Assembly (NCBI RefSeq): GCF_014698305.1
Contig: NZ_JACJST010000011.1
Location: 1-64,000, forward strand
Direction: 5' to 3'
Source: Anabaena lutea FACHB-196
Lineage (GTDB): Bacteria > Cyanobacteriota > Cyanobacteriia > Cyanobacteriales > Nostocaceae
Length of the DNA: 64,000 nt
Shown: in pieces, positions 10,931 to 55,531 of the stretch
How the letters are laid out: each line of letters begins with the position of its first letter
How positions within the stretch are numbered: the stretch's first letter is position 1
Notes under the pieces: generated by a model
The model's input: the letters and a program-made list of their open reading frames with translations, nothing else
What the model was told of the DNA's origin: nothing
Databases searched by the model: none
Program-made: the position numbers and the translations under genes

Positions 10931-12192
10931 ATATTTAGGCTAGTATTCTTTAAACCCTTGTAAGTCATGTATGAATTTAATATAACCCCTGGAATCAAAG
11001 GAACCATTCCGAATATAATTGCTCCTTTAAGTGTAGACACATTTACCAATAAAACTGCAACAATCTGTGCCATAAGTGTTCCAGGTATCTGTAACCAGAC
11101 AAGATCAAGCCATGCTTTGGAAGCATTGAGAGACCACATAGTATTAACAACAAAAAACAATCCTGAACTAACTATGACTAAAATTAATTCTGACTGTAAA
11201 TGTGCGTATTTCGAGCCTATGATCCATAGAAATTGACTAGGAAAAAGTGCGGCTAAACCTACTAAAGCTCCTGAAAATATACACATGGTGCAGAGAATTT
11301 GGCAATAGCGACGGAATAGAAGCTTTGGAGACTGACAACGAGCAAAGCTTGGTAGTATAATCCCATTCATAACTGAGCCTATAATGGAAAAAATAACCGC
11401 CAAACGCCCTAATGCTCCAATTTCAGCAACAGTTTGTACATTGCCAAAGATACTCAGTAACCATACGGTAATTTGTCCTTGGAAACAGTAAAATATTGTA
11501 TTAGGTGCTGATTTTTGAATAATTTTGGTAATTTCTGCCCTATCTTCTTGATTCAAGGGGGCTTTCCTGTCAATATTATCAATTACTAAATTTCCTAACA
11601 GCAACCTCTGTATTCCTAGTGCAATTGAGGAGGCAGATGTGACTAAAGCTGTGTTGAAAACTGTTAGATAAGAAACCCCCAATAAGGCTATTCTAGAAAT
11701 ATTCAACGCTAAATCCAGTTTCTGAATTCGACTGACTTGTGAATGGAGACGGGGTACAATATTCAACACACCAATAGTCAATTGAAAATAAAGTCCCACC
11801 AGTACCGCAATTGTAATTAAAATTGCGTATAACAGGGAAGCTCCATTTCTGAATAGCATCCAGATAGAAATTGGTGTCACAACTGTAATGGAAATAGCAG
11901 CTAGATAATAGCGAAGATGTAAAGCTGTATTGATTAATTGTCCAAAGCGATACCTATCTTGCCATACCTTACCACCAATCGCTGAAAGTCCAATACTGAT
12001 ACCCATGTCAGCCAAAACACTCATAGTCCCTTGCATTGTAGTAGCAATGGTATAGTAGGCATATTCTCGCTGTTCTAAAGTACGAACTATGAATAGACCA
12101 CTAGCGAGGGTTAAAGCTTGAACTATAATTTGCACAGAGACAAATTTGCCCAGTAATTTAGTCCAATGAACAAAATTTGCAGGTAGAGACAT
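10927..12192 (-). CDS. Polysaccharide flippase-like membrane protein (Wzx/MOP type)
   Basis: A 421-residue protein with about 12 hydrophobic segments and the layout of the oligosaccharide flippase family: an N-terminal FVSVQIIVQALTLASGLFIVRTL helix, short loops, and paired helices to the end. It is inferred to move lipid-linked oligosaccharide across the inner membrane, working with the O-antigen polymerase-like gene at 2854-4218. It is the first gene of the minus-strand set; about 216 non-coding bases upstream probably hold the promoter. Confidence 0.78.
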   Translation of the reverse strand: MSLPANFVHWTKLLGKFVSVQIIVQALTLASGLFIVRTLEQREYAYYTIATTMQGTMSVLADMGISIGLSAIGGKVWQDRYRFGQLINTALHLRYYLAAISITVVTPISIWMLFRNGASLLYAILITIAVLVGLYFQLTIGVLNIVPRLHSQVSRIQKLDLALNISRIALLGVSYLTVFNTALVTSASSIALGIQRLLLGNLVIDNIDRKAPLNQEDRAEITKIIQKSAPNTIFYCFQGQITVWLLSIFGNVQTVAEIGALGRLAVIFSIIGSVMNGIILPSFARCQSPKLLFRRYCQILCTMCIFSGALVGLAALFPSQFLWIIGSKYAHLQSELILVIVSSGLFFVVNTMWSLNASKAWLDLVWLQIPGTLMAQIVAVLLVNVSTLKGAIIFGMVPLIPGVILNSYMTYKGLKNTSLNI

Positions 12193-37936: not shown

Positions 37937-40410
37937 GTTTCCAATTATGCGTCCCCACATGGTTAGTGGAGACTTTGGTTTATGGGAGGTCAATATACTA
38001 CGGGAGGAGTTTCCAATTATGCGTCCCCACATGGTTAGTGGAGACAATTTAGTTCAGGATTAGTTCAAGATGGCAGGGAGTTTCCAATTATGCGTCCCCA
38101 CATGGTTAGTGGAGACACTTATGGCAGAAAATCAATTGATTTTTGGATTTGGTTTCCAATTATGCGTCCCCACATGGTTAGTGGAGACTAATTGCGGTAG
38201 GTGTGTAACCAGTACTGGAAAATCCGGTTTCCAATTATGCGTCCCCACATGGTTAGTGGAGACTCGACATTGGCCCGGTTTATTTTTCTTTAAAACTTTT
38301 TGATGTTTCCAATTATGCGTCCCCACATGGTTAGTGGAGACATCAAATGGAGGAGTTTTAATGAATATTGAAGAATTGTTTCCAATTATGCGTCCCCACA
38401 TGGTTAGTGGAGACTCAAGTCAGCTATTAATACTCTTGACAACTATATTGTTGTTTCCAATTATGCGTCCCCACATGGTTAGTGGAGACTTAGTCAAAAT
38501 CTAACTTCAGTAGACTACACAATGCAGTTTCCAATTATGCGTCCCCACATGGTTAGTGGAGACTTACTTTCCCCGAAGTTAGTAAAGCAGTCCCCCCGTT
38601 TCCAATTATGCGTCCCCACATGGTTAGTGGAGACCCAAAATCATCGATCCTAACGACTTTCGAGACTTAGTTTCCAATTATGCGTCCCCACATGGTTAGT
38701 GGAGACCCAAATGTTCAAGAAATTGCCTACTTAAATACAACATTGTTTCCAATTATGCGTCCCCACATGGTTAGTGGAGACCCTCCTTTACTGCGTTATT
38801 TCGGCGGCAAGTACCGAGTTTCCAATTATGCGTCCCCACATGGTTAGTGGAGACCCGGAATTCTAAACTTAATTGGCGCTCAAGGATCTGGGAAGTTTCC
38901 AATTATGCGTCCCCACATGGTTAGTGGAGACTTTCTAATTGGGGGTATCGGGTACACGCTCTACGTAGTTTCCAATTATGCGTCCCCACATGGTTAGTGG
39001 AGACACCACCGAACATATCGACCGTCATGGTTTCTGTTAGCTCGTTTCCAATTATGCGTCCCCACATGGTTAGTGGAGACGTTAATTAGCTCCTGAAGTT
39101 TGTCTCCTTGGTAGGTTTCCAATTATGCGTCCCCACATGGTTAGTGGAGACGCGAGTGCTTTATGGGTATCACACTATAGCAAATTCATTAGTTTCCAAT
39201 TATGCGTCCCCACATGGTTAGTGGAGACATATGAAAATGCCACGACCTAAAGAAAATAGAAGTTTCCAATTATGCGTCCCCACATGGTTAGTGGAGACGC
39301 GCGGCTTCTTAATGCGATCGCCAAAATTCTCACTTTCGTTTCCAATTATGCGTCCCCACATGGTTAGTGGAGACATTGTCAAAGAAAATGCAGAGGAAGA
39401 AGTTTTAAGTTTCCAATTATGCGTCCCCACATGGTTAGTGGAGACCTCAGTCTATTGAAAGACTAAAGCCAGCCGTTAGAGTTTCCAATTATGCGTCCCC
39501 ACATGGTTAGTGGAGACTCGATTCTGCCTTTGCCACATGGTTGCACCCTCCAATGTTTCCAATTATGCGTCCCCACATGGTTAGTGGAGACTTTACAGGG
39601 AAATGGTAATTGGAAATCTGATTATCGTTTCCAATTATGCGTCCCCACATGGTTAGTGGAGACAAACCAACGAACGGTATTAAATTAAAAGAGAAAAAGT
39701 TTCCAATTATGCGTCCCCACATGGTTAGTGGAGACGGGTATTCGCCAATTCATTGTACGAAAGTCTACCCAGTTTCCAATTATGCGTCCCCACATGGTTA
39801 GTGGAGACCAGAGTATCTATCCAAGCTTGCTAGTGAGATATCAGCGGTTTCCAATTATGCGTCCCCACATGGTTAGTGGAGACCTGGGCAGTTTATTGGA
39901 GTTCGCCTCTAAATTTAGCGGTTTCCAATTATGCGTCCCCACATGGTTAGTGGAGACTTGATTTTGATGTAGCTTGGAAGATTGCGGGATACTCGTTTCC
40001 AATTATGCGTCCCCACATGGTTAGTGGAGACGAGGTGTTGACATTGATGGTAATACCTATTGTCGCTCCTGTTTCCAATTATGCGTCCCCACATGGTTAG
40101 TGGAGACCATGGCTTATAAAAAATGTTGCACTACCTATGATGTTGTTTCCAATTATGCGTCCCCACATGGTTAGTGGAGACAGGGTTATTAAGATTGTTT
40201 CAAGCCCGATGATGAACAAGGTGGTTTCCAATTATGCGTCCCCACATGGTTAGTGGAGACCCAAATCTAAGTTTAAGCGGTATGGGTTCTATGCAATCGT
40301 TTCCAATTATGCGTCCCCACATGGTTAGTGGAGACGAGTGCTTTATGGGTATCACACTATAGCAACTTCACAAGTTTCCAATTATGCGTCCCCACATGGT
40401 TAGTGGAGAC
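37937..40410 (-). CRISPR. CRISPR array 1, 34 repeats of 37 bp
   Basis: The plus-strand repeat begins GTTTCCAATTATGCGTCCCC and ends GGTTAGTGGAGAC. By hand count there are 34 repeats and 33 spacers of about 34-40 bases; repeats appear identical. Read on the minus strand the repeat starts GTCTCCAC and ends ATAATTGGAAAC. This matches the usual crRNA 5' handle form and allows an 8-bp hairpin GTCTCCAC/GTGGGGAC (one G-U) with a 7-base loop. Transcription is therefore taken as minus strand, leader at 40411 onward, the same direction as the Cmr operon. Spacers 17 (39152-39191) and 33 (40336-40373) share a 30-base core. Confidence 0.97.
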
Positions 40411-41207: not shown

Positions 41208-42941
41208 TTAAGTGATGTCGTTGGCGATCGCTTCTAGTTCATCGTATAAATTCCTCTCCTTGTAAGGTAGACCTAAATTCTTGATTTCATTCAGAAATTT
41301 TTCTTTAACTTCCTGCTGGTAAATGGTTAAGACATCTCGCTTGCTTGAATCAGACTGATCACCTAAAAGATATCGGATAACATCTCTTTCCGTAACTCCA
41401 CGTAGATTGTGCATTAATTGATTGCGGCGGTCTGCTTCACGTTTTCTTACATATTTACCTATCCATTTCAGAAGTGTCCAAGGTTGAAAATTCTTTTTTG
41501 GTGCTTGTTTACACAATTCACATAGCCACGCAACCATACCTTGATTGCTTCCTATGTCAGAAAAATTACCCAACTCGCCTTGATTGAGTTTTTTATAATT
41601 ATTTTTGACAGGAAAAAATAATTGTTCCAAAATTCCGATTTTTTCCTCTTTAATATTTATGCTTCTATCTACACCTAGCAAGTCTTTTAAATAATTATCT
41701 TTTTCATCTTTTTTCGTATCTTCCTCGTTAGTTTTAAAAACCAAACCTTCTTGATTCCAAACAATCACTTCATCCACCCTTAATTTTCCGCTAATTGGTG
41801 AATCAAAAGTTTCATAGCGACTATATAATTCATTGATTATAGCTGCCTTTAAAAATGTTTCATGAGCAGCAGCTAATAATGTGATTCCCTGAATATAATT
41901 TTTTTCTTTAAAGAAAATCTCTATTAAAGATAGTGAATCAACAACCCGTTGTATAGCTGGCTTCACATAAAATTCATTTTCATCTTTTTTGATCAGACTT
42001 TTACGAATATTAAACACGCTCACCATGTTTTTTAAACGTGGCATAACGTTTTTAGTATCTTCATAACCAATTTCCTCCAACATAGACAAAGCAGCACCAG
42101 GTAAACCCTTACGAACTAATTGTTTTGCTTTTTCAATTTGAATTCCCATCCAGTAATTAGAAATCTCAACTAATTGAGGCTCTGATGACGGCTTATCATC
42201 ATCATTAAAAAATATATTACTTGATAAAAATTTGACGTTATTAAAATTACCTAAACTGACAAATTGTACTGCTGAAGATATTGCCGGAGTTCCCGCTTGA
42301 TGGCTAACATATACAGTTTCTTTGGGGTCATATTCAGGAGATTCTGATAATTTTTTTTGAATCTTTTGGAATTCTTCTTTCACTAAATCTAAAGTTTTTT
42401 CCCAGTTATCTAGTCCTTCCTTAGATGGTTCTGAAGTGTGAGATTTCTTACGTGGTCTTAAAGTGCAGAATTCTAGTTTAACTGATGAGAAAATTAAATG
42501 TTGTTGAAAATACTCTTTAAATATAGGCTCTAAAGTACAAGTATCCTGCCAAAAAGGAGAAAATTCATGTTCTACCTGCTCATTCAAATCACCATTTTCA
42601 TCAACAAATATATTTCTTTGGTCAGTCAACAATACAATAAGCATAGATGGCTTTTCATCGGGCTTATTCACAAAATATTGAGTAAAAGTATCTAATAACG
42701 GAAAAGCCAAATTGCCATAATAATTATCCTGTACATGATTTCCATACACTATGCCTAATATCCTGGCAGGAACAGGATAAAGTTCGGTAGTTTTGTCTTC
42801 CTGAATAGCTGCAAATTTATCACATTTTCTGATATCTTTCTGATCATCATACCTCACTTCTTCATATAACGGCCTTTCCCAGTTATCATCGGTCTTTAAC
42901 TGCACATCACTATTACCTGTTGTAATAATCCAAATTGACAT
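41208..42941 (-). CDS. CARF-HEPN effector, Csm6/Csx1-like
   Basis: A 577-residue type III accessory protein. The N-terminal Rossmann-like domain begins MSIWIITTGNSDVQL and later has VYVSHQAGTPAISSAVQF, whose GTP loop resembles CARF sensors of cyclic oligoadenylate. The C-terminal part carries the HEPN RNase motif RNQLMH (R506, H511), fitting R-X4-H. Predicted action: cyclic oligoadenylate made by Cas10 activates non-specific RNA cleavage. ATG at 42941 is chosen since AGGAG lies 7 bases upstream; an earlier in-frame start would overlap the previous gene. It is the last intact gene of the Cmr operon. The exact Csm6 or Csx1 class is unsettled. Confidence 0.8.
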   Translation of the reverse strand: MSIWIITTGNSDVQLKTDDNWERPLYEEVRYDDQKDIRKCDKFAAIQEDKTTELYPVPARILGIVYGNHVQDNYYGNLAFPLLDTFTQYFVNKPDEKPSMLIVLLTDQRNIFVDENGDLNEQVEHEFSPFWQDTCTLEPIFKEYFQQHLIFSSVKLEFCTLRPRKKSHTSEPSKEGLDNWEKTLDLVKEEFQKIQKKLSESPEYDPKETVYVSHQAGTPAISSAVQFVSLGNFNNVKFLSSNIFFNDDDKPSSEPQLVEISNYWMGIQIEKAKQLVRKGLPGAALSMLEEIGYEDTKNVMPRLKNMVSVFNIRKSLIKKDENEFYVKPAIQRVVDSLSLIEIFFKEKNYIQGITLLAAAHETFLKAAIINELYSRYETFDSPISGKLRVDEVIVWNQEGLVFKTNEEDTKKDEKDNYLKDLLGVDRSINIKEEKIGILEQLFFPVKNNYKKLNQGELGNFSDIGSNQGMVAWLCELCKQAPKKNFQPWTLLKWIGKYVRKREADRRNQLMHNLRGVTERDVIRYLLGDQSDSSKRDVLTIYQQEVKEKFLNEIKNLGLPYKERNLYDELEAIANDIT

Positions 42942-42955
42942 ATTAATTCTCCTAA

Positions 42956-44944
42956 TTACCAAACTTTTTTAAATTCACTATTCTCGTTAAGAAAAGCCAA
43001 AAACTTTGTAGTTTCTGAAGATTCATCAGGGAAAATGATCAGCAACTCTACATAACCTTTCCCTGACACAACTTTCCCCTGCTCATTAGTCACAAAACGC
43101 GGATACATACGATGCCAAATGCGTCCTGTATTTCCCATTTTTCCCGCTAAAATATGAGGATTTCTAATTCTATCATTCCCCTTATAAGCATCATGAAACC
43201 AGTGAATTGCTAGACTTTTGCCATTTTCTGCAAAACGCGCCCACACTTGTACTTTCGGTGCATACCAAGCTTCCCGCCATTGTGTGATGTCATCATTTTT
43301 ATTTGATTGATTTTGAGGTTGATTCTGGACAGTTTCGGGACGTTTTGGTGGAGATTTGAGAATAGGAGCTTGATTTGGTTTTGATATATTTTTGTTATTG
43401 GGTATATTGGTTGTGACAGTTGTATTTGTAGCTTTCTGTGTTGGTTTATTGGTTAATAAATTAACATCCTGTTTAATTTGTTTATCTTGTGGTATCCAAA
43501 TCCGAATTACATCACGAATTTGTTGGATATATTTAGTAATATTATTGGGATTATTTTGGTCATTTTCTAAATTATTAATGGGATAATATTCTGACTCATT
43601 AATAAATTGCCAATGACAACCAATCACCTTGTCTGGATGGTTTTTAAAATAGGTTGTGTGAAACTCCTTATGACATACTCTACGCCAAGATTTACCAATT
43701 CCACCAAATAGCATGGTAAATTTAATTATAGCTTTGGCTGTATTAATTAATTTGAGTCTTTCTGCATCAGTTATCTCAGGATGCATACAAAAAATATTTA
43801 AAGTTCCTTCAGATAGTTCATAGTGCTTAGGATTATATGTAAACCTAATATTTTCTAAATTAAAATCAAAATCTATTCCCAATAATCCCACATTTGTATC
43901 TTTTGAATCTTGATTATTTTTGTCAGCAAATCCACCCCATAATTTTCTAGTAATTTGCTTGGCTGTATCTCCGTCAGTCATTCCTGCTAATAAACGTAAG
44001 GTATGTCCCCGTAATGCAGCCTTAAACATATTCGGACGAAATTCCGGTGTTTTATTAACTAATGTTGATACACTACCCTGTCCTTTCAGCTTAATTTGTA
44101 ATAGTAGATGAGAATGCTCTTGATGATTATAATCAATTTCTTGAAAATATCCGTAACCAGCACTAACTCTAGAACCCAGTCCATTAGCTAATGCTCTTTC
44201 CCAGATTTTTTTAATTTTATCCCATTCGGATTTATCTAATTCTTCGGTACTAGAAAAACCGAATTTTAATGTGGTATGATGGAGAGATATCATAGAATTT
44301 GCATTAGTTGGGTTATCTCTATCATCCTTAATTACTTGTTTGCTTTCTTGACTGTGAACAATATCTACTAATTTTTTTGTCCAGTCTAAATCAACTGGAT
44401 AAGCACCATGAAAGCGCAAAATTCCAGGTTTACTACTACCATCTGCTAATTTTTTACCGCAATAATTTTCTGCTTCTATTCTTCCCTGTTCTTTCCCATA
44501 AATTTGTTTGCAAGCACGAATAAAAGCACCTTTCATACTTGCACCAGAGAAATAGGGAAAACCTTTAGCACCAATAATTGGACGGATAAAACCCTCATCT
44601 TGTCCGCTATTGGAAACCAATCTCCATTTGATTGTGTATTTCCATGTTTCTACCTGAGAACCAAATTCTGGGAATTTAAAGTTTGTATTTTTTGCGGGTT
44701 TTACATTTGGTTTTGAACGTGCTAAAGCTTTATTTATTGGCTGCTGGAAATTAGGTACAGCTTGATTGCTGTGAGATACTTCTTTAGGAAGTAAATCTTT
44801 AGGAAAAATCCCCTTCCATTCATCAACCCATATCTCTGCATCTTGTCGTTTTTCTGCACTTTTTCGCTTATCAACAACTCTCTGAATTTGGCAACGTCCA
44901 TCAATTTGAGCGCGGAACATCATGGGTACATCTTCAGCATTCAT
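42956..44944 (-). CDS. cmr6: Cmr6-Cmr1-like RAMP fusion with extra C-terminal domain
   Basis: A 662-residue protein, about twice a normal Cmr6. An N-terminal ~95-residue region is of unknown type. Residues 100-270 form a Cmr6-like RAMP with FIRPIIGAKGFPYFSGASMKG and the glycine-rich LGSRVSAGYGYF. Residues about 280-480 form a second RAMP with FRPNMFKAALRGHTLRLLAG and KLWGG, recalling Cmr1. A Pro/Asn/Lys-rich linker (about 485-555) leads to a ~105-residue domain with VQVWARFAENGKSLAIHWFH that I cannot place. No separate cmr1 exists in the operon. It overlaps none of its neighbours (2-base gap to cmr5). Confidence 0.75.
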   Translation of the reverse strand: MNAEDVPMMFRAQIDGRCQIQRVVDKRKSAEKRQDAEIWVDEWKGIFPKDLLPKEVSHSNQAVPNFQQPINKALARSKPNVKPAKNTNFKFPEFGSQVETWKYTIKWRLVSNSGQDEGFIRPIIGAKGFPYFSGASMKGAFIRACKQIYGKEQGRIEAENYCGKKLADGSSKPGILRFHGAYPVDLDWTKKLVDIVHSQESKQVIKDDRDNPTNANSMISLHHTTLKFGFSSTEELDKSEWDKIKKIWERALANGLGSRVSAGYGYFQEIDYNHQEHSHLLLQIKLKGQGSVSTLVNKTPEFRPNMFKAALRGHTLRLLAGMTDGDTAKQITRKLWGGFADKNNQDSKDTNVGLLGIDFDFNLENIRFTYNPKHYELSEGTLNIFCMHPEITDAERLKLINTAKAIIKFTMLFGGIGKSWRRVCHKEFHTTYFKNHPDKVIGCHWQFINESEYYPINNLENDQNNPNNITKYIQQIRDVIRIWIPQDKQIKQDVNLLTNKPTQKATNTTVTTNIPNNKNISKPNQAPILKSPPKRPETVQNQPQNQSNKNDDITQWREAWYAPKVQVWARFAENGKSLAIHWFHDAYKGNDRIRNPHILAGKMGNTGRIWHRMYPRFVTNEQGKVVSGKGYVELLIIFPDESSETTKFLAFLNENSEFKKVW

Positions 44945-44946
44945 GG

Positions 44947-45396
44947 TTATTTTTCCTCTTTTTTCTCTTTAACTTTATTAAATCGCTGTGTCCACCAAAC
45001 TAAACTGTCACAAAATTGAGTTAAAACAGCTAAAGTTACTCTTTGATGCTCAATGGGAAATTGCTCTTTATCCCAAAACAGAGCCGTCATTTTTTTGATA
45101 TCTTCGGTTTTAAAATTTTTGCTGTCACGCCCTATTTTTTCATTAGGAACAATAATTCCAGCTTTCTTCATAATTTCTACTAACTCTTGCCAAGTTTCTA
45201 ACCAAAATTCTCCTTTGTTGTAATCTTCGCTATCTTTTCCCTTACTCATTAAGCGTAAATGCTCTCCCCAAAATCTTTCTAATCCATAAGCTGCTGTGAC
45301 GCGCATTTTGTGAGATTCTTTTAAAACCTCTTTGTCTCGATACTTAAGGACTAAATGCTGTGCTTTTTGGTCTAATTCATAAGAGTTCCAAGTCAT
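44947..45396 (-). CDS. cmr5: Cmr5-like small subunit
   Basis: A 149-residue, charged, mainly helical protein in the place of Cmr5, between cmr4 (4-base overlap) and the Cmr6-type gene (2-base gap). TAAYGLERFWGEHLRLM and VTLAVLTQFCDSLVWWTQRF could be packing helices. Sequence similarity to characterised Cmr5 proteins is weak by eye, so the name rests mainly on size, helicity and position. It would line the inner filament of the effector complex. Confidence 0.6.
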   Translation of the reverse strand: MTWNSYELDQKAQHLVLKYRDKEVLKESHKMRVTAAYGLERFWGEHLRLMSKGKDSEDYNKGEFWLETWQELVEIMKKAGIIVPNEKIGRDSKNFKTEDIKKMTALFWDKEQFPIEHQRVTLAVLTQFCDSLVWWTQRFNKVKEKKEEK

Positions 45397-46277
45397 GATT
45401 TTTCCTCACTAATATGCTTAATTGTTAAATGACAATGACCTAAACCAATAGATTCAAGTCCACCCAAATATATTTCACCACTTAATTTACCCTGAATCGG
45501 TTTCCAATCCCAATCTTTATCATGGGGTTTAATCGCAATGGGGAAGGCTAAAATTGTACCTTCAGGTAATGCCTCAGTATTAAAAAATTGACCTTTTTTA
45601 GCCATTTTTTTATCGTCTTCCAAAGCGACTCGACTTTGACGATATAAAGCCATATCGTGAATCATCGCTATATCATTATCATCCACTACTACTGCTGGTA
45701 AATCTTCACCTAAAGGAAACCAATCTGATAAATTTCCTTCTCTTTTAATTTCTAAAAAACCGAGATTAAAAAAGAGAAATTTCTTACCTTTATGTTTATT
45801 ACCCTGAGATTCTAAGGCACTATTCCATAACTTTTTAGAAGCTGTATATTCTCTAGGAATTTCATTAGCTTTTTTATTTAACCCAGCTATACGATTATAT
45901 CTTTTGAGTAAACTAGGACAAGTTACCCAGACAATTGGTTGTCCTGGACAAAAAACAGGTAGCCAAACAATAGAAGCGTGTTCTAATTTAATTACAGCTT
46001 CGCTGGTACTATCTGGTTCTCCAGGTTCAGCTTTTCTTCCATACCAAAAATTTTCATCTTGTTCGGGAGGAATTGTTTCTCCTTTCTTTTTGAGATATTC
46101 GCAATATTGACGCATATCGGCTCGCAAACGACCGCGAATTGAACTACCATTAATAATGCCAGTTTGGGTAAATTGGTCACGAAAGATAAGGTTTAAATTA
46201 CCGTTTTCTTCCCCTGCTGTCGCTCCCACATGAACTGGTGCTAAGGTTTCAATAATTCCACAAGCTTTCTGATACAT
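45393..46277 (-). CDS. cmr4: Type III-B RAMP backbone protein Cmr4
   Basis: A 294-residue RAMP that forms the filament binding crRNA. Family motifs: APVHVGAT at residues 13-20, TGIINGSSIRGRLR at 39-52, and GLESIGLGHCHLT near the C-terminus. The loop that carries the target-RNA-cleaving Asp in known Cmr4 (VVDQPIQRE) and Csm3 (VDNPVIRD) reads GNLNLIFRDQF at 26-36. The catalytic Asp position is Leu or Asn. Slicing may thus be lost, or D34 may act instead. The gene overlaps cmr5 by 4 bases. Confidence 0.85.
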   Translation of the reverse strand: MYQKACGIIETLAPVHVGATAGEENGNLNLIFRDQFTQTGIINGSSIRGRLRADMRQYCEYLKKKGETIPPEQDENFWYGRKAEPGEPDSTSEAVIKLEHASIVWLPVFCPGQPIVWVTCPSLLKRYNRIAGLNKKANEIPREYTASKKLWNSALESQGNKHKGKKFLFFNLGFLEIKREGNLSDWFPLGEDLPAVVVDDNDIAMIHDMALYRQSRVALEDDKKMAKKGQFFNTEALPEGTILAFPIAIKPHDKDWDWKPIQGKLSGEIYLGGLESIGLGHCHLTIKHISEEKS

Positions 46278-46288
46278 GATTTTCTCTC

Positions 46289-47353
46289 CTATTGATTTAC
46301 TAATTGAGTTTCTTGATACTTTTGTAAACCTTTAATTTCTACTGGTAAACACAAACCAGAACCAATTTTTTGTAAGCTATATCCCTGATTTGGAAACCAG
46401 TTTTCATCAAATTCACTCCAAGTTTTATTAAGTGGTTTTGGTAATACATAGACACTGCCGGCGGGAACTGCATAACGTCCTCTTCCTAATCTTCCAGCGG
46501 AATTGAACCGATAAGGTATGGCTTTATCAGTTAGTAATTTAGTTTTGTCTTCTGGAAAATATGATACTAAATCAGGATGTTGGGGAAAACGATAAGAAAA
46601 CCGGGTTGAACCCCAAACAGCAGGAGAAATTAAAGCAAATGCTTGTTGTATTTTTTGATCAAAAACTTTGATAACTTCTGAATTTTTAATCTCTTCACAT
46701 TCAATTTCTACAATGTGATTTTCTCCTCCAAAACGATACCAGCCATTTTTTAATTTATGGCTTGATAAATAAATTAAACAAGTATCTTCTGGCATTTGTA
46801 CGGCACTTTCTAGAAACAAACCATCTTTCTCTTTGGAGTGCCTTTGGTCATCTTTCATGTGAGGATGAAGAAAAGATACATAATCCCAAGGATGAGTAGC
46901 ACAATCTAGTTTATTCTTATTCCAAGATGTAATAGTTTGCCATGTAAAAGCTGGTTCTAATTTATCTTCATCTTCTTGATATTGTCTTTGTCGCTGCCAA
47001 TTTCCATTTTTATCTAATACCCATTCGTCTCTATATTTCTCCTTATCTCCAGCAATAATTCTATGCCAAGGAATTGGCACATAAAAATTTTGTTCATATC
47101 CAGATTTAGCCCAAAATGGACCCGCAGTATGCAATTTTTGAGTAAATTTTTCGTGAGTTTCCTCTGCTTCTGGTTTAGGGAAGTTTTTATCTGCTAATTT
47201 GGCACTAAAAAATAAACCAGAAAGAACTGCTGCACTAGGGGGAAATTTTTCTCCAGAACGACCAACTAAATTTTCTGGTGACAGAAATGCACCTGCACTA
47301 CCATATAAAAAACCTAATGGTCTGATGATGATGATGTATTTGTATTTGCACAT
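46289..47353 (-). CDS. cmr3: Type III-B RAMP protein Cmr3
   Basis: A 354-residue Cmr3-type protein that holds the crRNA 5' handle against Cas10. The N-terminus YIIIIRPLGFLYGSAGAF matches the beta-strand and loop of Cmr3, followed by GEKFPPSAAVLSGLFFS and a glycine-rich RLGRGRYAVPAG near residue 300. ATG at 47353 is chosen, as the longer frame (to 47389) adds residues not expected before this strand. It overlaps the cas10 end by 40 bases, so the two are tightly coupled. Confidence 0.82.
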   Translation of the reverse strand: MCKYKYIIIIRPLGFLYGSAGAFLSPENLVGRSGEKFPPSAAVLSGLFFSAKLADKNFPKPEAEETHEKFTQKLHTAGPFWAKSGYEQNFYVPIPWHRIIAGDKEKYRDEWVLDKNGNWQRQRQYQEDEDKLEPAFTWQTITSWNKNKLDCATHPWDYVSFLHPHMKDDQRHSKEKDGLFLESAVQMPEDTCLIYLSSHKLKNGWYRFGGENHIVEIECEEIKNSEVIKVFDQKIQQAFALISPAVWGSTRFSYRFPQHPDLVSYFPEDKTKLLTDKAIPYRFNSAGRLGRGRYAVPAGSVYVLPKPLNKTWSEFDENWFPNQGYSLQKIGSGLCLPVEIKGLQKYQETQLVNQ

Positions 47354-49086
47354 AAATACCAACCAATTGTAATTAAATTTTCTATCCAATCAATCATTAA
47401 TAAAGCTTTTTGAGCGGAACTTGCATCATCACTTGCACCCACAAGAAATTTTTCGTGAGTTTTAAGTATTTCCTGATAACTAGGAAAATAAATACCAAAA
47501 AATTCTAAAAAATATCGACGATAGTCAAGAATTTTACTTTGTTTAGCGGTGTTATCACTATCAATTTCTTGACGACGACGGTTTTCTCCTAGTCCAAAAG
47601 CGTGACGGGCTTTGAGTTGGGCTAAATCACTGTATATATGCGTCCAATTCGGTTCGTATTTACTATCCCGACCTTTGCATTCCCATTCTGGATAAGTGTT
47701 ACCTTTTCCGTCTGTATATTTTTTCAAAATATGCAAGTATTTCCACGGACAAGTCCATTCTACATACTGTCCACTATTAAATACAATTCTAATGGTCACG
47801 CGATCGCGCTTTAAACTTTTGGCTGTCTCCTGTGCTTGACGACAATGTTGCAATACATCTCGTTGGGGAACACTCCCCGCAACCCAGACAAAACCAACGC
47901 TGACATTTATATCTTGTTTATGTTCGTGCCATTTATTATTTAATGTCATTAACCATTCCAATGCAGTCAATCCAGGAATTGGTTTTCTGACATTTTTACT
48001 ATAAATTACTCCTAAAAAATCATCTCCACCGGCGTAAATAATTCTGCCTAGTTTTTGCTTTGGTAAGTATCCATAAAAATCCTTACCCCAATTACGTAGT
48101 TCTATAGTCAATTCTCGAAGATTATCTTCTGCTTTTTCGCTATTGGCTAGTTCTTTCAACTTTTTTCCAACTTCATCTCCATCTCCCATAAACCAACCAG
48201 TCCATTGTCCAGGCTGAGTTGCAGTCGGTTTGCGACGAATTTCTTTAAATCCTTTGGGTAATTTCCCAAAAGAAAAACTATTTCCTCCAATTTTTATTCC
48301 TATATCTTTTCTGACATCCTCACAAGTTACCAGACGTTTAACTAATTCAGGAATACTCAACTGTTCGTTAAGCGCGATGAATTTACCTTCTGCTTGAGCT
48401 TCTTCAGCAATATCTTCTTCTTCTTCTAATTCTTCTGTTTCTGGTTCTTCTTCCTGAGAATTTTCTCTGTTTTCAGTTATATATGCTAAATCTCCATAAA
48501 ACGTTGTGATATCATCTTGTTCAGAGCGATAGGTTAAATTTTTAGGGTTACGATTTTCTCCACCCAATCCTGGAAATGCAATTCCATCTGTACCTGTTAA
48601 ACTTGAACTTTCACCAATCCAGTTAATTGCAGTCCAATTACGAGAAAGTTTGCGAGTTTCCAAATCTTCCATTGCATTTGCGATAGAATTACCTTGCCCC
48701 CAAAAGATTTCCCAAGCATGGTTTCCCCAATGTCCCCACTCACGTTCCCACTCATATTTATAATCGGATAATTCTGTCTCAATCCAGTTACGACAAACTG
48801 CAAGTATATCCTTCCAAGCTGTTAATAATATCTCCCGTGCAGTATCTTTGGGAAAATGACCGTTTATAAGGATGCGGTTCGGCATTCCTTTTTGTAAATT
48901 AATATTTGCAGGGGAAATTACTGTCGTTTCTGGAGGTTTATGTGCTGCTAGTACTATCTGTTGACTAAGGTAGGACAAAATTAAAGACGCACCATATAAG
49001 TCCCTCAACTTCCGTGATTTTTCGATAAATCCTTGCACTGGTGCAAAGGTAATAGCAGTGTATGTGTCTTTTGCTTCATCAGCCAT
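47314..49086 (-). CDS. cas10: Cas10/Cmr2 large subunit without HD domain
   Basis: A 590-residue Cas10. It starts directly with the first palm (FAPVQGFIEKSRKLRDLYGAS), so the N-terminal HD nuclease domain of longer Cas10 proteins is missing. The first palm core reads MGDGDEVG (300-307) and the catalytic second palm YAGGDD (351-356), intact for cyclic oligoadenylate synthesis. An acidic linker (about 207-233) interrupts the N-terminal half. The C-terminus ends in a Ser/Asn stretch that overlaps cmr3. With the CARF-HEPN gene downstream, signalling rather than HD-type DNA cutting is the probable output. First gene of the operon. Confidence 0.93.
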   Translation of the reverse strand: MADEAKDTYTAITFAPVQGFIEKSRKLRDLYGASLILSYLSQQIVLAAHKPPETTVISPANINLQKGMPNRILINGHFPKDTAREILLTAWKDILAVCRNWIETELSDYKYEWEREWGHWGNHAWEIFWGQGNSIANAMEDLETRKLSRNWTAINWIGESSSLTGTDGIAFPGLGGENRNPKNLTYRSEQDDITTFYGDLAYITENRENSQEEEPETEELEEEEDIAEEAQAEGKFIALNEQLSIPELVKRLVTCEDVRKDIGIKIGGNSFSFGKLPKGFKEIRRKPTATQPGQWTGWFMGDGDEVGKKLKELANSEKAEDNLRELTIELRNWGKDFYGYLPKQKLGRIIYAGGDDFLGVIYSKNVRKPIPGLTALEWLMTLNNKWHEHKQDINVSVGFVWVAGSVPQRDVLQHCRQAQETAKSLKRDRVTIRIVFNSGQYVEWTCPWKYLHILKKYTDGKGNTYPEWECKGRDSKYEPNWTHIYSDLAQLKARHAFGLGENRRRQEIDSDNTAKQSKILDYRRYFLEFFGIYFPSYQEILKTHEKFLVGASDDASSAQKALLMIDWIENLITIGWYLCANTNTSSSSDH

Positions 49087-49546
49087 ACTCTTACTTCAAC
49101 ACGTAAACAACTTTTACAACAATGTCTGGCACTAGAAAATCGTATAATGAACAACTTAAATGCTACTCAAAATAACTGATTTTCTTTATTATCTATGTAA
49201 CAATACGTAAAGGAAAAGTAACAAAGTAAAAAGAACTGGTTATCCCCTTACTTGTTATTTTTCAACCTAACGCTCATATTACTAAGTGTTGCAGAGATGA
49301 CCTGAGTTCCAAACTGTTTTCATGCGAATGACGAAAAATATGGCAATCAGTTGAAATATAAGATAACACCCCACCCCTAACCTCTCCCCGCTGTTTCGTG
49401 GAGGGGAACAGGATTTACAGTTAATTCCTATTTTGAAAAGAGCGATGTCTCCGACGGGCTACGCCTACGCATTTTCAACCATAAATCATTCACTCTTTCC
49501 CATTTCAAATTATGATAAATCTCTAGACAAAAGTGCATCTTAAAAA
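49087..49546. other. Divergent region between cas10 and Rpn-like gene
   Basis: About 460 bases with no gene. The operon promoter should lie in the A+T-rich part next to 49087. A C-rich/G-rich hairpin-like stretch, with ACCTCTCCCC and GTGGAGGGG arms (about 49379-49408), and a palindrome-rich ACGGGCTACGCC segment (about 49455-49466) are dispersed cyanobacterial repeats. Confidence 0.4.
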
Positions 49547-50395
49547 ATGCCAAAACCAACAGATACCAGCACAAAAAAACTAATTAGCCTTGCCCCTGAC
49601 AATTGGGTAAGATGGGTGACGGATATTCCTAATATCAAAGCCCATGAAATTTTATCGGGGGAATTTCAATGGATAAGTAGAGAAAGTGATGTATTAATCC
49701 GTGCCACAAGTCCAGAATATGGAGAATTTCTCGTATTAAATGAACTGCAACTGCGCTACAATACCAAAATGCCTCGACGAATGCGTTGCTATGCAGCACT
49801 TGCAGAAGAAAAATATGAATTACCGACTTACCCGGTATTAATTAATATTTTGCCAACTAGCGATGTAGAAATACCTACGAGATTTACATCAAATTTTGCC
49901 GGATTAACAGCAACCCAAGATTACCGCGTGATTAATTTGTGGGAAGTTGATGTGAATATTCCCTTTCAACAATCTTTGCCTTCATTACTTCCCTTTGTCC
50001 CAATTCTCAAAGGAGGAGGAAATGAGTTTATAATTAGGGAAGCATTGCAAATCTTACGTCAAGATCAAGAATTAAATCAACTGGAGACGGTTCTAGCCTT
50101 TTTTGCTACCTTTGTATTAGAAAGTGCGTTAGTGAAAGATATCATGAGGTGGGATATGGCAGTTTTACGAGAGTCACCTTGGTATGAAGAAATACTAAAA
50201 GAAGGAGAAGCACGGGGACGAAAAGAAGAAATGCTTTCTAACATAGAAATGAGTTTGGAAGCGAAGTTTGGTAATGAGGGTTTGGAATTAATGCCTCAAA
50301 TTTGTCAAATTAATGATTTGGAACAATTACAAGGGATTTTGCGAAGTGTGGTTTTAGCGAATAATTTTGAGGAATTACGGCAAACTTTTTCATGA
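49547..50395 (+). CDS. Rpn family PD-(D/E)XK nuclease-like protein
   Basis: A 282-residue protein of the Rpn/transposase_31-like group. The core SDVLIRATSPEYGEFLVLNELQLRYNTKMPRRMRCYAALAEEKY holds Asp49 and the E-x-Q of a PD-(D/E)XK site. The second half contains helical segments and a GEARGRKEEML linker before a DUF4351-like tail NIEMSLEAKFGNEGLELM. These genes are common in cyanobacteria and are thought to promote recombination. It lies between the Cmr operon and array 2, on the opposite strand to both. Confidence 0.78.
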   Translation: MPKPTDTSTKKLISLAPDNWVRWVTDIPNIKAHEILSGEFQWISRESDVLIRATSPEYGEFLVLNELQLRYNTKMPRRMRCYAALAEEKYELPTYPVLINILPTSDVEIPTRFTSNFAGLTATQDYRVINLWEVDVNIPFQQSLPSLLPFVPILKGGGNEFIIREALQILRQDQELNQLETVLAFFATFVLESALVKDIMRWDMAVLRESPWYEEILKEGEARGRKEEMLSNIEMSLEAKFGNEGLELMPQICQINDLEQLQGILRSVVLANNFEELRQTFS

Positions 50396-51107: not shown

Positions 51108-53023
51108 GTTTCCAATTATTCCGAATTAACCCAATCGGTGGGGCTTATATTGACAACAAGCCAATAACCAACGCAACTGGGTTTCCAATTATTCCGAATT
51201 AACCCAATCGGTGGGGTAGAGTTACTTAATGGAATGACATTTAACTTATTTCGTGTTTCCAATTATTCCGAATTAACCCAATCGGTGGGGTATTTATGTT
51301 TTTTTCGTTTTTCTTCGGAGGGAGTTTTGTTGTTTCCAATTATTCCGAATTAACCCAATCGGTGGGGATTCTTTATTTTCCGACGTCTTATGACTTTCGA
51401 AAACGTGTTTCCAATTATTCCGAATTAACCCAATCGGTGGGGAGGAAGCCCCTCCGTCAAAGGCGAGAATCAGTTAGCGTTTCCAATTATTCCGAATTAA
51501 CCCAATCGGTGGGGAACTCAAACAGTTTTTAACCTACAAAAATTTTGTAGTTTCCAATTATTCCGAATTAACCCAATCGGTGGGGAAAATTTAATAGCAT
51601 CTCTGACACCGTCGTAGAAAAAGGTTTCCAATTATTCCGAATTAACCCAATCGGTGGGGTAGATCCCCAGTTGAAGAAAACGCTTTTCTTCTAGTTCTGG
51701 TTTCCAATTATTCCGAATTAACCCAATCGGTGGGGAAACCAAGCAAAGGATTGTTTATGATTGCTTTTGTTTCCAATTATTCCGATTTAACCCAATCGGT
51801 GGGGATACAGAAGAAATTGTTCTCGAAGCACAAAATGAAGTTTCCAATTATTCCGATTTAACCCAATCGGTGGGGAGCAAACTGGATTGACCCAGAAACG
51901 TTCTATCCTGTGGTTTCCAATTATTCCGATTTAACCCAATCGGTGGGGACCGTATTTTTGCAACCCAAGAAGACCCCCAAAGGGTTGAAAGTTTCCAATT
52001 ATTCCGATTTAACCCAATCGGTGGGGTCAAATGGCAGAAATAGTTGCGCGCATGATACAGCGTTTCCAATTATTCCGATTTAACCCAATCGGTGGGGAAA
52101 GGGGGGCAGCGATTTGTTCTCCCCTTTTTTTGATGTTTCCAATTATTCCGATTTAACCCAATCGGTGGGGCCGACAACCCTCCACCAGTGGAACTGGGTA
52201 CCAAGAACAGTTTCCAATTATTCCGATTTAACCCAATCGGTGGGGGCGATCTTCACAGACCCCGCGAACGCCTGCGAAAGTTTCCAATTATTCCGATTTA
52301 ACCCAATCGGTGGGGTCCGCATCAGTTTCGTCTTTCTAACGCAACCATCTTTGTTTCCAATTATTCCGATTTAACCCAATCGGTGGGGTTAACGCACAAC
52401 CCGCAGAAGTTGCTCGCTTAATCGTTTCCAATTATTCCGATTTAACCCAATCGGTGGGGGTAATGACACTATCTATGGTGGACTTGGTAAAAGTTTCCAA
52501 TTATTCCGATTTAACCCAATCGGTGGGGGAACCACAAGATCAGTATCAAGAACCAGCGTTTCCAATTATTCCGATTTAACCCAATCGGTGGGGTTTCTTG
52601 CGTTGGTAGTTTTGGCTTTTGGTTTTTTAACGTTTCCAATTATTCCGATTTAACCCAATCGGTGGGGCTACGAGATTAGAGCATTAACAGACATAAACGT
52701 TTCCAATTATTCCGATTTAACCCAATCGGTGGGGGCGATTAAAATCGCCAACGACTAACCCCCATTCTTCTGTTTCCAATTATTCCGATTTAACCCAATC
52801 GGTGGGGGCTATACTGTAGTCCCTCCTCAATTGTTCTTTCGTGTTTCCAATTATTCCGATTTAACCCAATCGGTGGGGAGTTGACTTTATTGGCGGATAC
52901 CATGCTGACCAAGCGTTTCCAATTATTCCGATTTAACCCAATCGGTGGGGGTTACATTTGAATAATGACAGGTTCAGAACAATGAGCGTTTCCAATTATT
53001 CCGATTTAACCCAATCGGTGGGG
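51108..53023 (-). CRISPR. CRISPR array 2, 27 repeats of 36 bp in two variants
   Basis: The plus-strand repeat starts GTTTCCAATTATTCCGA and ends CCCAATCGGTGGGG. By hand count there are 27 repeats and 26 spacers of about 29-42 bases. Repeats 1-9 (51108-51735) have GAATTAACC and repeats 10-27 (51769-53023) have GATTTAACC. On the minus strand the repeat ends ATAATTGGAAAC like array 1, so transcription runs leftward with the leader at 53024-53368. The leader-proximal variant forms a perfect 6-bp stem CCGATT/AATCGG; the distal variant has one mismatch. The first 12 bases of the plus-strand repeat equal those of array 1, so one processing enzyme may serve both. Confidence 0.97.
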
Positions 53024-53368
53024 AGTTCGTCTAGCAGCCCTTACCCAGTAAGGATTTGGAACCACAAATCGACGCACCTCTAAAAAAGATTGTAAAACCA
53101 GCTAAAAAATTAGTCAAACACATAGCTCAAACCCTTACACAGTAAGCTATCGACACACCTCAACGAAAGAATAGGGGTTTGGGCGATTTGCCGGGGTGTG
53201 TCGATAGTCATGATACAAAAACCTCTTCAAACAGCCTCCAACCTAGATACAGAAAGACTTTGATAGAACCTTATGTTGACAAAATATCTTCTTAGTCATT
53301 CGCACAAGCGATGTAAAATGATCACTTATTCCAACTATATAACTAATTAAGTAAAATTATACATTAAT
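53024..53368 (-). promoter_or_regulatory. Leader of array 2 and divergent promoter region
   Basis: Shared by array 2 (read leftward) and the kinase-WYL gene (read rightward). A compound motif occurs twice: hairpin CCCTTACNCAGTAAG at 53038-53052 and 53132-53146, each followed by TCGACRCACCTC at 53069-53080 and 53150-53161. A third half-site lies in inverted orientation at 53195-53207. No reading frame is supported. Confidence 0.6.
53147..53207. promoter_or_regulatory. Perfect 13-bp inverted repeat, candidate regulator site
   Basis: CTATCGACACACC (53147-53159) and GGTGTGTCGATAG (53195-53207) separated by 35 bases. It lies 162 bases upstream of the kinase-WYL start and 124 bases from array 2. 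Either a binding site for a dimeric regulator (perhaps the WYL protein) or the stem of an RNA hairpin. Confidence 0.55.
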
Positions 53369-55531
53369 ATGTCAACATCTCGACGCAAAACTCAACAGGC
53401 AGCTAAAACCGACTCCAAAACAATCATCGTTCATTTTCTCATCGGCACACCAGGAAGCGGTAAATCAACCTTTGCCAAACTCCTATCCAGCACAGGAAAT
53501 TGCGAAATCGTCTCCACTGACGACATCCGCCAAGATTTATACGGTGATGCAGCAATTCAAGGAGAATGGCACAAAATCGAAGCCATTGCCATTAACCGTA
53601 TTTGTACTGCTCTTAGTCTACAAAAAAGTATTATTTACGATGCTACTAATTGTAAACGTTCCTTTCGCATGGACTTTTTACTCAAAGTCAATAGTCAACT
53701 AGCAGAATGGAAATTAACCCAACCTAACTGGATTGGTTGGTATTTACAAACTCCTTTGGAAATTTGCATTCAGTGGAATCAACAACGCCAACGCCAAGTT
53801 CCTACTAATATTATTGAGTGTATGTATCAAATGCTGCAAGACTTTCCACCAATTAATGGGGAAGGATTCGCTGCTATCAATAAAATTGATGTTACTGCAC
53901 CCAATTTTTCTTTACATCAAATTGCCAAAATAATTACAGATGTTCCCCGTAAAATTGTCAATTGCCAAAATCGTCATGCCAACATCACACCCCATCGTTA
54001 TAGTCATTTATTAGATTTTGAGCGTTTGATATATTTGATATTCTTAATCATTAATTATCCTGGTATTGGTGAATTTCATATCAACAACCCGAAATTATTA
54101 GAAGATATTCTGGGTTATCTTCCTAATTTTACCAATTCTCTAGAAGAAATTACTGCTATTATGGCTAAACTGCGGGGTGGGGTTTATGCAAATAAAGATG
54201 CGATAGCGGCTGATTTAGAATGGTTGGAAACTCAAGGAATTATTAATGCAACTTTCCCTGTAATTAGTCAAAATACTCAAGAATTTAAAAGTGATGAATT
54301 GATATCTTTAAGTGGATTCCACTCTTACTCAGATAAACAAGTTTTTGAGCGGTTAATTGGCACGATTCGCTTTATTATCCACTACCCTTTTTTGGCTGAC
54401 ATGGGTGTAGGTAGTTTGAATACTTTAATTCGCTCTCTTGCACAAGCTGGAATAATTGACGACTATCGTACACGAAAAGCTACAATTCGTAAAGATATTG
54501 AAAGAGTTTTAAAACCTTATAAAATATTATCGGAGTTTTCAATGCGTCACGGTTATTTTGCTGGTACTGGCATTCTTTCTAAACCAGAATTAATCAAGGT
54601 TTTTGATATGATTCAATCCCAAGCTAAGAGTTTAAATGACCCTCAAGCTTTAGCAATTTATGAAATGTTTAGAGAACGATTGTTACAAACACATACTATT
54701 GAAAATACTGAAAATATTTATCCGGTGAGGGCGATCGCTAATAGTTCCATTGTAGACCCCAAATATCTCCATAGTAGCGCCTTAAGTAATAATCTCACTC
54801 AGTTGGAAACAGCAATTGTCGAAGGAAGGCTTTTAGAGTTACAACGGTTTGCAGGTGTGGGTAGGTACGAAGGAGATGAAAAAGACTTTTTCTTAGCCTA
54901 TCCATTACAAATAGTGTTTTCTAACTTTGCTTGGTATTTGGGTTATGAATGCGTCAGTGGTGAAACTGCTGGTTTATTGCGGTTTGAACGTCTGGATAGA
55001 CTATGTTTAGGTAGACCACAAAGCCAACAACGCAACGCAGAATTACAGGAAAAGGCACTACAAAAGTTACAGAAATTATTTAAATCTGGTGCGGGAATGC
55101 ACTTAGGAAATAGCAGCATTGACCAAAAACTGTTTCTCAGTACAGATCAACAAGAACGAATGCAAGTCTGCGTGACGGTGGAACTTTGGTTTAATGATCG
55201 GATTTATCCGTTTATTACTGAGGGAACAAAACGGTTTGCACAGATGAAAATGTCGCCACCGATTCAGAAGACAACGAGTAATTTACCCAAGTCTCTATTT
55301 TGTTTGGACAGAACAAGCGATCGCCATTTCCCCCATCGTTTTCAAGCAATATTTCCTAAATGGACTTTAGATGATTTTGATTTGCAAAGATGGATTATTG
55401 GGTTTGGTGGAGGTGTGAAAGTCATCACTCCAGAAAATTTGGTAGAGAGGGTAAAGACAATAGGTGAAGAAATTAGGGCGAATTACAGCAGAATTCAGGA
55501 GACGCTTCGCAGACCTCCGGTTCAGGAGTAA
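53369..55531 (+). CDS. Polynucleotide-kinase-like P-loop protein fused to WYL domain
   Basis: A 720-residue fusion. Residues 20-175 form a T4 Pnk-type kinase: Walker A GTPGSGKS (26-33), STDDIR (49-54), YDATN (90-94) with nearby Arg, and a lid RQRQVPTNIIECM. Residues about 200-440 hold two winged-helix-like segments (KDAIAADLEWLETQGII, RKATIRKDIERVL). Residues about 470-560 are a WYL domain (AYPLQIVFSNFAWYLGYEC, LLRFERLDRL), followed by the WYL C-terminal extension (DLQRWIIGFGGGVKVITPENL). WYL proteins sense ligands and regulate defence loci. It is divergent from the leader of array 2. It could sense nucleotides or phosphorylate 5'-OH RNA ends; both are inferences. Confidence 0.82.
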   Translation: MSTSRRKTQQAAKTDSKTIIVHFLIGTPGSGKSTFAKLLSSTGNCEIVSTDDIRQDLYGDAAIQGEWHKIEAIAINRICTALSLQKSIIYDATNCKRSFRMDFLLKVNSQLAEWKLTQPNWIGWYLQTPLEICIQWNQQRQRQVPTNIIECMYQMLQDFPPINGEGFAAINKIDVTAPNFSLHQIAKIITDVPRKIVNCQNRHANITPHRYSHLLDFERLIYLIFLIINYPGIGEFHINNPKLLEDILGYLPNFTNSLEEITAIMAKLRGGVYANKDAIAADLEWLETQGIINATFPVISQNTQEFKSDELISLSGFHSYSDKQVFERLIGTIRFIIHYPFLADMGVGSLNTLIRSLAQAGIIDDYRTRKATIRKDIERVLKPYKILSEFSMRHGYFAGTGILSKPELIKVFDMIQSQAKSLNDPQALAIYEMFRERLLQTHTIENTENIYPVRAIANSSIVDPKYLHSSALSNNLTQLETAIVEGRLLELQRFAGVGRYEGDEKDFFLAYPLQIVFSNFAWYLGYECVSGETAGLLRFERLDRLCLGRPQSQQRNAELQEKALQKLQKLFKSGAGMHLGNSSIDQKLFLSTDQQERMQVCVTVELWFNDRIYPFITEGTKRFAQMKMSPPIQKTTSNLPKSLFCLDRTSDRHFPHRFQAIFPKWTLDDFDLQRWIIGFGGGVKVITPENLVERVKTIGEEIRANYSRIQETLRRPPVQE

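Follow-up and report, generated by a model that had tools for sequence, protein, structure and literature searches.

To our knowledge, the regulation of type III CRISPR loci and the coupling of these loci to the RNA damage they bring about are largely open questions. The subject here is a gene from the cyanobacterium Anabaena lutea FACHB-196, which lies beside a CRISPR array of a type III-B locus and encodes a single protein with a polynucleotide kinase-like (PNK) domain and a WYL domain. Here we report a computational analysis of this PNK-WYL fusion gene (53369..55531, + strand) in the window, i.e. the whole 64,000-nucleotide stretch of contig NZ_JACJST010000011.1 that was analyzed, together with its homologues in other cyanobacterial genomes and a 20-bp directional DNA element found upstream of it. 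The analysis directly establishes the domain architecture and its conservation, the genomic linkage, and the element with its placement. On this basis, we consider it somewhat better than an even chance (probability about 0.58) that the fusion is a transcription regulator dedicated to the cyanobacterial III-B locus and carries its own kinase for nucleic-acid 5' ends.

The fusion gene is an exact open reading frame (ORF) of 720 amino acids with an ATG start, and no large ORF overlaps it. In one chain, the protein carries a Pnk-type P-loop kinase domain (residues 19-178, 53423..53902), a tandem repeat with copy 1 at residues 205-300 (53981..54268) and copy 2 at residues 312-400 (54302..54568), and a WYL-WCX module composed of a WYL domain (residues 467-545, 54767..55003) and a WCX match (residues 669-701, 55373..55471), all on the + strand. 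The ORF together with the Pfam AAA_33 and PADLOC WYL matches bears out the kinase and WYL parts of the first-pass annotation of this DNA, made from the sequence alone, which had placed a kinase, two winged-helix-like segments and a WYL domain in one protein.

By its Walker A motif, D-x-x-R, D-x-T and lid arginine, the N-terminal domain belongs to the Pnk/AAA_33 kinases. Pfam AAA_33 matches residues 21-150 of the window protein (E 2.3e-16) and all of the 60 aligned homologues, which were picked as full-length and span 29-83% identity; residue conservation was counted over these sequences. The motifs earlier read as those of a T4 Pnk-like kinase (Walker A GTPGSGKST, STDDIR, DATN and the lid) are all present in the window protein. 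Residues K32, D51, R54, D91, T93, R97, R100, N137 and R140, whose roles are presumed by analogy with T4 Pnk, are identical in 60/60 homologues, and R142 is kept in 59/60; in STDDIR, D51 is the only invariant one of the two aspartates, position 52 being variable. A live kinase is very likely, because the catalytic residues are the same in all 60 homologues, and the check proposed by the first-pass annotation, conservation of the kinase motifs among homologues, thus leaves its assignment standing. In a PDB profile search with the 60-homologue profile, the kinase domain of 4gp6 was the best match (E 3e-18), followed by the archaeal PSTK (3adb, 5e-14), and T4 Pnk (1ly1) was matched at 2e-6; beyond the kinase-type P-loop and WCX matches, the PDB profile search of the fusion gave nothing notable. 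We take 4gp6, 4gp7 and 4jst to be structures of Clostridium thermocellum Pnkp (CthPnkp), an RNA-repair protein. The fusion is not a full-length bacterial Pnkp (TIGR04075), scoring 30.7 bits against a cut-off of 750 with only residues 23-174 matched.

The second-best PDB match to PSTK structures, together with weak matches to the NCBIfam PSTK family (TIGR03574, E 7e-13) and to the Pfam zeta toxin (E 0.02), would fit a PSTK- or zeta-type effector that acts on tRNA or a metabolite, the protein being a toxin-like arm freed by infection. We regard such an effector as highly improbable, as the scores stay below the family cut-offs (48.6 against 290.5 bits for PSTK, 14.6 against 22.3 for the zeta toxin) and the PHROG polynucleotide kinase is matched with an E-value of 9e-13.

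The middle part contains an internal duplication of residues 205-300 and 312-400 (HRYSHLLDFERLIYLI and HSYSDKQVFERLIGTI; 41% identity over 32 residues, E 3e-5). Of the two winged-helix-like segments proposed in the first-pass annotation, the duplication is real, and the fold label is unproven, because no helix-turn-helix (HTH) profile matched the fusion protein in Pfam, NCBIfam and PHROG scans and two AlphaFold models, built with seven close sequences each, reached a mean predicted local distance difference test (pLDDT) of only 38.1 and 40.8. That the repeat copies are two winged helices is a likely guess from the sequence.

In the C-terminal module, PADLOC WYL covers residues 467-702 (E 1.2e-17); in the window protein, Pfam WYL covers residues 475-544 (E 0.006) just under its curated cut-off, and Pfam WCX covers residues 669-701 (E 9e-5), 0.7 bits under its cut-off, with a further match to PafC. 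At E 0.01 or better, WCX is matched in 58/60 homologues and Pfam WYL in only 8/60; the assignment of a WYL domain therefore relies on PADLOC and WCX. The features of WYL regulators, an arginine pair in the domain and a C-terminal WCX extension, are both found: R541 of the R-L-D-R motif is kept in 60/60 homologues and R544 in 59/60, and the WYL domain proposed earlier is supported by these residues and the PADLOC match. From the R-L-D-R spacing, we infer that R541/R544 are equivalent to the arginines of PafB/PafC.

Is this gene tied to the CRISPR locus or only a neighbor of it? Among 217 genomes of the same family, 60 carry the fusion, whole or in large part, by reading of the match list, and 64 homologue loci with full-length or large partial matches were fetched; the fusion-bearing genomes G026 (two pieces), G103:C58, G216:C54 and G073:C33 lie outside the fetched set. 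Within 10 kb of the fusion, 46 of these 64 loci contain Cmr (type III-B) genes, 45 an array-like repeat, 40 both and 51 either, where an array is any stretch in which a 22-mer occurs at least three times, a definition that also picks up some short tandem repeats (as in control loci L206 and L209); cas1 or cas2 is present in 23/64. Cas10 of the window type is mostly divergent from the fusion, i.e. upstream on the opposite strand (34 opposite, 4 same). By genome, the window's Cas10 clade is accompanied by the fusion in 46/52 cases and the fusion by that Cas10 in 46/60 (Fisher p 7e-28, a value that ignores relatedness and is based on genome lists drawn up by eye, excluding weak Cas10 pieces of G064 and G127 and including pieces of G005, G046 and G062).

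In contrast, stand-alone relatives of the kinase without WYL (L200-L213 and L106) have Cmr or Cas10 genes in 0/15 loci. We rejected a chance neighborhood because of the strong linkage to the Cas10 clade and the zero count for the stand-alone kinases. In the source genome itself, a second, weaker match is a stand-alone kinase with an open frame of 180 aa, around which no CRISPR genes were found. Among kinase-only copies that group with the fusions, Cmr genes are absent from L214-L217 (L214 and L215 being on contigs under 8 kb) and present at L185. A viral origin was considered and set aside: viral contigs encode at least 75 relatives, all matching within residues 2-196, and the fusion was not seen among the matches listed, both scan patterns being located in the kinase. 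In a tree of 79 kinase domains, a fully supported branch parts 13 of these 15 stand-alone kinases without WYL from all 60 fusions; the fusion side also holds five truncated copies and a kinase encoded beside III-B on plasmid pSYSA of Synechocystis 6803. Some branches, including that of the pSYSA kinase, were flagged as long by the tree program.

What might such a protein regulate? A directional DNA element with a consensus of about TTTCGTCATTCGCATGAAA and the core TCATTCGC, first spotted as GTCATTCGCA upstream in most close relatives, occurs twice in the window as a putative operator. One copy (TCTTAGTCATTCGCACAAGC, 53290..53309, + strand, 21.5 bits, with GTCATTCGCA exact) lies about 60-79 bp before the fusion gene, and the other (TTTTCGTCATTCGCATGAAA, 49318..49337, - strand, 29.4 bits, with the exact 15-mer TCGTCATTCGCATGA) about 230-250 bp before cas10, each in gene sense. 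These are the only two weight-matrix matches of 12 bits or more in the window, versus 0.35 on average across 20 resampled windows, and the matrix gave no further window site above 11 bits. Neither copy stands directly before an array in array sense. The control of the array envisaged in the first-pass annotation was therefore revised, because the element precedes cas operons and the fusion gene; the candidate targets become cas10-cmr, csx18-cas1-cas2 in relatives, and the fusion gene itself.

In the 64 family loci (1.135 Mb), the exact 9-mer TCATTCGCA occurs 87 times versus 8.5 expected under a first-order Markov model. It was found in sense within 450 bp of cas10 in 28/38 cases, csx18 in 9/11, cas1 in 9/26, fusion ORFs in 18/65 and other ORFs in 14/575, and never in sense within 450 bp of the inner cmr genes of these loci. 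A 20-bp weight matrix gave upstream matches for cas10 in 34/38, csx18 in 11/11, cas1 in 11/26, fusion genes in 35/56 and others in 18/585, counts that are partly circular because the matrix was trained on family sites. Matrix matches also precede 10/36 cmr6 genes of the family, yet they all represent a single conserved stretch (in most cases AATTGGTCAATCTCA) that lies 289-340 bp upstream and was taken for cmr5 coding sequence, and Cmr6 was not counted as a target.

In a search of 386 genomes from across the phylum, 53 gave a match at 1e-40, which in a few cases covers the kinase or WYL part alone; of the 40 loci taken from there that lie outside the family, L152 is partial and L153 kinase-only, and records L119, L125 and L112 repeat L111, L110 and L044, respectively. 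Outside the family, the matrix matched upstream of 9/39 fusion genes (8/36 without repeated records) versus 14/664 other genes. The core GT[ACG]ATTCGC, counted outside the training family and hence free of the matrix circularity, was found in sense within 200 bp of 7/32 fusion genes (antisense 0) versus 5/589 others (p 3e-7). Six of these seven loci (L116, L120, L124 and L132-L134) are without Cmr genes, and among the six only L120 has an array. Within the family, too, an exact copy stands 73-89 bp ahead of the fusion gene in five loci (L054, L056, L058, L059 and L064) in which no Cmr genes or array were found. By genome, the strict 15-mer TCGTCATTCGCATRA is present in 33/217: 31/60 with the fusion and 2/157 without. 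The pattern GTCATTCGCAY occurs 7 times in the source genome versus 2 for the reversed pattern; five of its sites lie outside the window (G000:C1:97782, C6:43260, C7:68994, C30:24677 and C62:82836). In locus L131, three consecutive element copies (11987-12065) are placed 102-172 bp upstream of an ORF of 569 aa, itself located behind the fusion gene.

We propose the fusion as the reader of the element because it recurs as the candidate, generally accompanies the element, and is preceded by the element even in loci without Cmr genes. It would bind the element and act as an activator rather than a repressor. Several observations weigh against this reading, in addition to the circularity of the family matrix counts and the winged-helix label, which rests on sequence duplication with poor models. 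Only 9/40 loci outside the family have Cmr genes (31/40 without), so that linkage to Cas10/Cmr, as of a type III-B ancillary gene, is a property of the family (46/64), and the earlier expectation that homologues sit next to CRISPR loci holds within it and not beyond. Fusion genes below the matrix threshold number 21/56 in the family and 30/39 among the distant ones (28/36 without repeated records), and three of the seven core matches outside the family (L132-L134) are close relatives. A homologue without the kinase exists in L138 (459 aa, matching residues 310-707 only), by which the WYL part can stand without the kinase as judged from sequence. Finally, six genomes have a window-type Cas10 without an intact fusion (G071, G170, G172, G181, G112 and G138), and four of them nonetheless carry the element: G112, G138, G172 (a weaker copy) and G181 (with a kinase-only ORF); in G112 and G138, the contig stops about 1-1.4 kb past the copy.

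These four genomes and the many distant fusion genes that the element does not precede would also be expected if another regulator, such as a sigma factor or one of the stand-alone WYL proteins of ~400 aa, read the element and the fusion were merely a member of the regulon; stand-alone WYL relatives indeed occur in many of the same genomes. Such an arrangement appears quite unlikely to us given how closely the strict element follows the fusion by genome and its position before fusion genes at loci devoid of Cmr genes. Moreover, no 12-bit match was found around cas10 in the well-assembled G071 (L184) and G170 (L195), which have Cas10 without the fusion, or near the pSYSA kinase without WYL (L108).

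The III-B locus suggests what the kinase could act on. Its operon (41208-49086, - strand) encodes Cas10/Cmr2 (47314..49086, 590 aa, GGDD at 353, HD dipeptide absent), Cmr3 (46289..47389), Cmr4 (45393..46277), Cmr5 (44947..45396, by PADLOC), a Cmr6-type RAMP protein (42956..44944) and the CARF-HEPN RNase Csx1 (41208..42962, RNQLMH at 513, PADLOC E 1.5e-189). This Cas10 is short; in its cluster, GGDD is present in 40/40 and the HD dipeptide in the first 150 residues in 0/40, and Csx1 RxxxxH is present in 26/26; since GGDD and RxxxxH are kept and the HD dipeptide is absent, the output of the system is probably cyclic oligoadenylate and the Csx1 RNase. In general, HEPN RNases leave 5'-OH ends. In the proposed mechanism, the middle part (probable tandem winged helices) would bind TTTCGTCATTCGCATGAAA before cas10-cmr-csx1, csx18-cas1-cas2 where present, and the fusion gene itself, and WYL-WCX would bind a single-stranded oligonucleotide via R541/R544, as in PafBC. 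The kinase would phosphorylate 5'-OH oligonucleotides, most likely RNA fragments as left by HEPN RNases such as Csx1, and would thereby make, remove or report the WYL ligand, so that expression of the locus would track infection or RNA damage. A role of the kinase as the chemistry of the sensor, rather than as a second activity, is weakly favored because its residues do not drift in WYL-bearing copies, although these were chosen as full-length and the L138 homologue lacks the kinase.

A more specific version is that PNK-WYL is a damage sensor, in which the kinase acts on 5'-OH oligonucleotides that arise from phage-induced cleavage or from Csx1 activity under cyclic oligoadenylate and makes them readable by WYL, raising interference and acquisition genes together during RNA cutting, and that this sensor is common to III-B and a new retron-like operon. 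We put this forward tentatively, with doubts prevailing.

The same chemistry could serve repair. The kinase would then restore 5'-phosphates on Csx1-cut RNA for ligation, with WYL only holding the RNA and regulation being secondary. The best PDB profile match, to the kinase domain of 4gp6/4gp7/4jst, presumably CthPnkp, is consistent with this. In loci L109 and L110, the fusion is followed by a methyltransferase (PADLOC C3a159 in the L109 copy) and an AlkB-type oxygenase gene, with an element 77 bp before the methyltransferase. On pSYSA (L108:8430-14566), the kinase-only relative is lined up with DUF6717 and AlkB-type genes, and this series immediately follows an array and III-B cas genes. Since this kinase, which lies inside the fusion clade on a long branch, stays beside a III-B locus without WYL or a nearby element match, it supports an RNA-end role. 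Against repair, no RNA ligase or phosphatase was seen among the recurrent neighbor clusters, a few of which were scanned for families, and the conserved element before the fusion and cas genes calls for a DNA-binding partner, for which the fusion is the recurrent candidate. A primary function in repair therefore seems unlikely.

The remainder of the window locus consists of two arrays, an ORF and a leader region. Array 2 (51108..53023) has 27 repeats, an inferred - orientation and a repeat that in this sense ends AATTGGAAAC; its variants are split, GAATTAA being found in the nine left and GATTTAA in the eighteen right repeats. Array 1 (37937..40410, right end approximate, - strand) has 34 repeats. 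Between cas10 and array 2, an ORF of 282 aa (49547-50395) has no Pfam match, and its homologues (cluster c12) occur near the fusion in 10 fetched loci. Between array 2 and the fusion gene, an inverted repeat found by eye (53147-53207, CTATCGACACACC / GGTGTGTCGATAG) has arms whose sequence differs in L043 and L049 without loss of pairing (CGACACC / GGTGTCG), so that a hairpin seems to be conserved in the leader or leader RNA. The leader inverted repeat TCGACNCACC, the first operator candidate, was dismissed as a general operator, since just three of 15 compared sequences retain it; possibly it belongs to the leader of array 2.

Does the module serve CRISPR loci alone? Outside the family, 4/40 loci have a retron-type reverse transcriptase (RT). 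In L109 (pAQ5 of Picosynechococcus PCC 7002), L111, L122 and L123, an RT gene is followed by a gene of 210-301 aa and then by the full fusion, and in L138 the third gene of the RT set is the kinase-less homologue. These sets of RT, a 210-307 aa gene and PNK-WYL span L109:9993-14067, L111:7464-11540, L122:9039-13071, L123:9025-12857 and L138:9368-12793. All five RTs carry NAxxH, YADD and VTG, and PADLOC retron RT models are matched by both of the RTs that were scanned (E 1e-137 to 1e-138); the middle gene of the L109 set has no Pfam match. This RT context differs from the window locus with its III-B system, and the three-gene set is possibly a new retron type.

Taken together, PNK-WYL presents itself as a candidate for a type III CRISPR regulator whose sensor is an enzyme and which is spread across the phylum, and a 20-bp candidate element is defined before the interference genes, the adaptation genes and the fusion's own gene. 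If the kinase makes the ligand, this would be a new mode of signaling in bacterial immunity, and the retron-like branch suggests that one module serves two defense families.

In agreement with the first-pass annotation, which knew of no described system with this fusion, no description of the PNK-WYL fusion or the element was found in the literature searched, supplements and most subscription papers being outside its reach. The accessible texts of several surveys bear on this point: the 2024 survey of type III effectors leaves out WYL regulators (PMC11229360), the 2025 classification has a single WYL mention, in a type VI legend (PMC12669027), in a study of Microcystis, WYL is mentioned solely alongside type I-B1 (PMC11855584), and the main text of a WYL survey does not contain the word 'kinase' (PMC9122601). 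Makarova et al. (2014) list Cas3, exoRNase, Mrr, HNH, SF1 helicase, AbiGII-like nucleotidyltransferase, BRCT and TerB as partners of WYL; like PNK-WYL, these fusions join WYL to an enzyme domain in defense, and a polynucleotide kinase is not listed in the accessible text (PMC4012209).

Among individual systems, the kinase domain of bacterial Pnkp (4gp6/4gp7/4jst) and T4 Pnk have the P-loop, D-x-x-R, D-x-T and lid residues in common with the fusion, which, unlike bacterial Pnkp, is without a phosphatase or ligase part. The PADLOC retron RT models XI, XII and I-C are matched by the two scanned RTs among those that precede one PNK-WYL clade; these types are marked as single genes, whereas the set found here has three. 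Sll7009 of Synechocystis 6803 is a WYL protein that controls a cyanobacterial CRISPR system (Hein 2013, as cited in PMC4012209 and PMC9122601), but of subtype I-D and with no kinase mentioned in the accessible text of the citing papers, unlike PNK-WYL beside III-B. The fusion also resembles the HTH-WYL transcription activators PafBC and DriD, which act through a dedicated promoter motif according to the accessible parts of the reports (PMC11804915, PMC12340889). PafBC is switched on by single-stranded DNA, bound through WYL arginine pairs, and brings two HTH domains, of PafB and PafC, to one promoter; 12-nt single-stranded RNA did not activate it (PMC11804915), which adds to the points against an RNA-sensing regulator. 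Compared with PafBC and DriD, PNK-WYL adds an N-terminal kinase and holds an internal duplication in one chain, and it is encoded in CRISPR and retron-like loci rather than with DNA damage genes.

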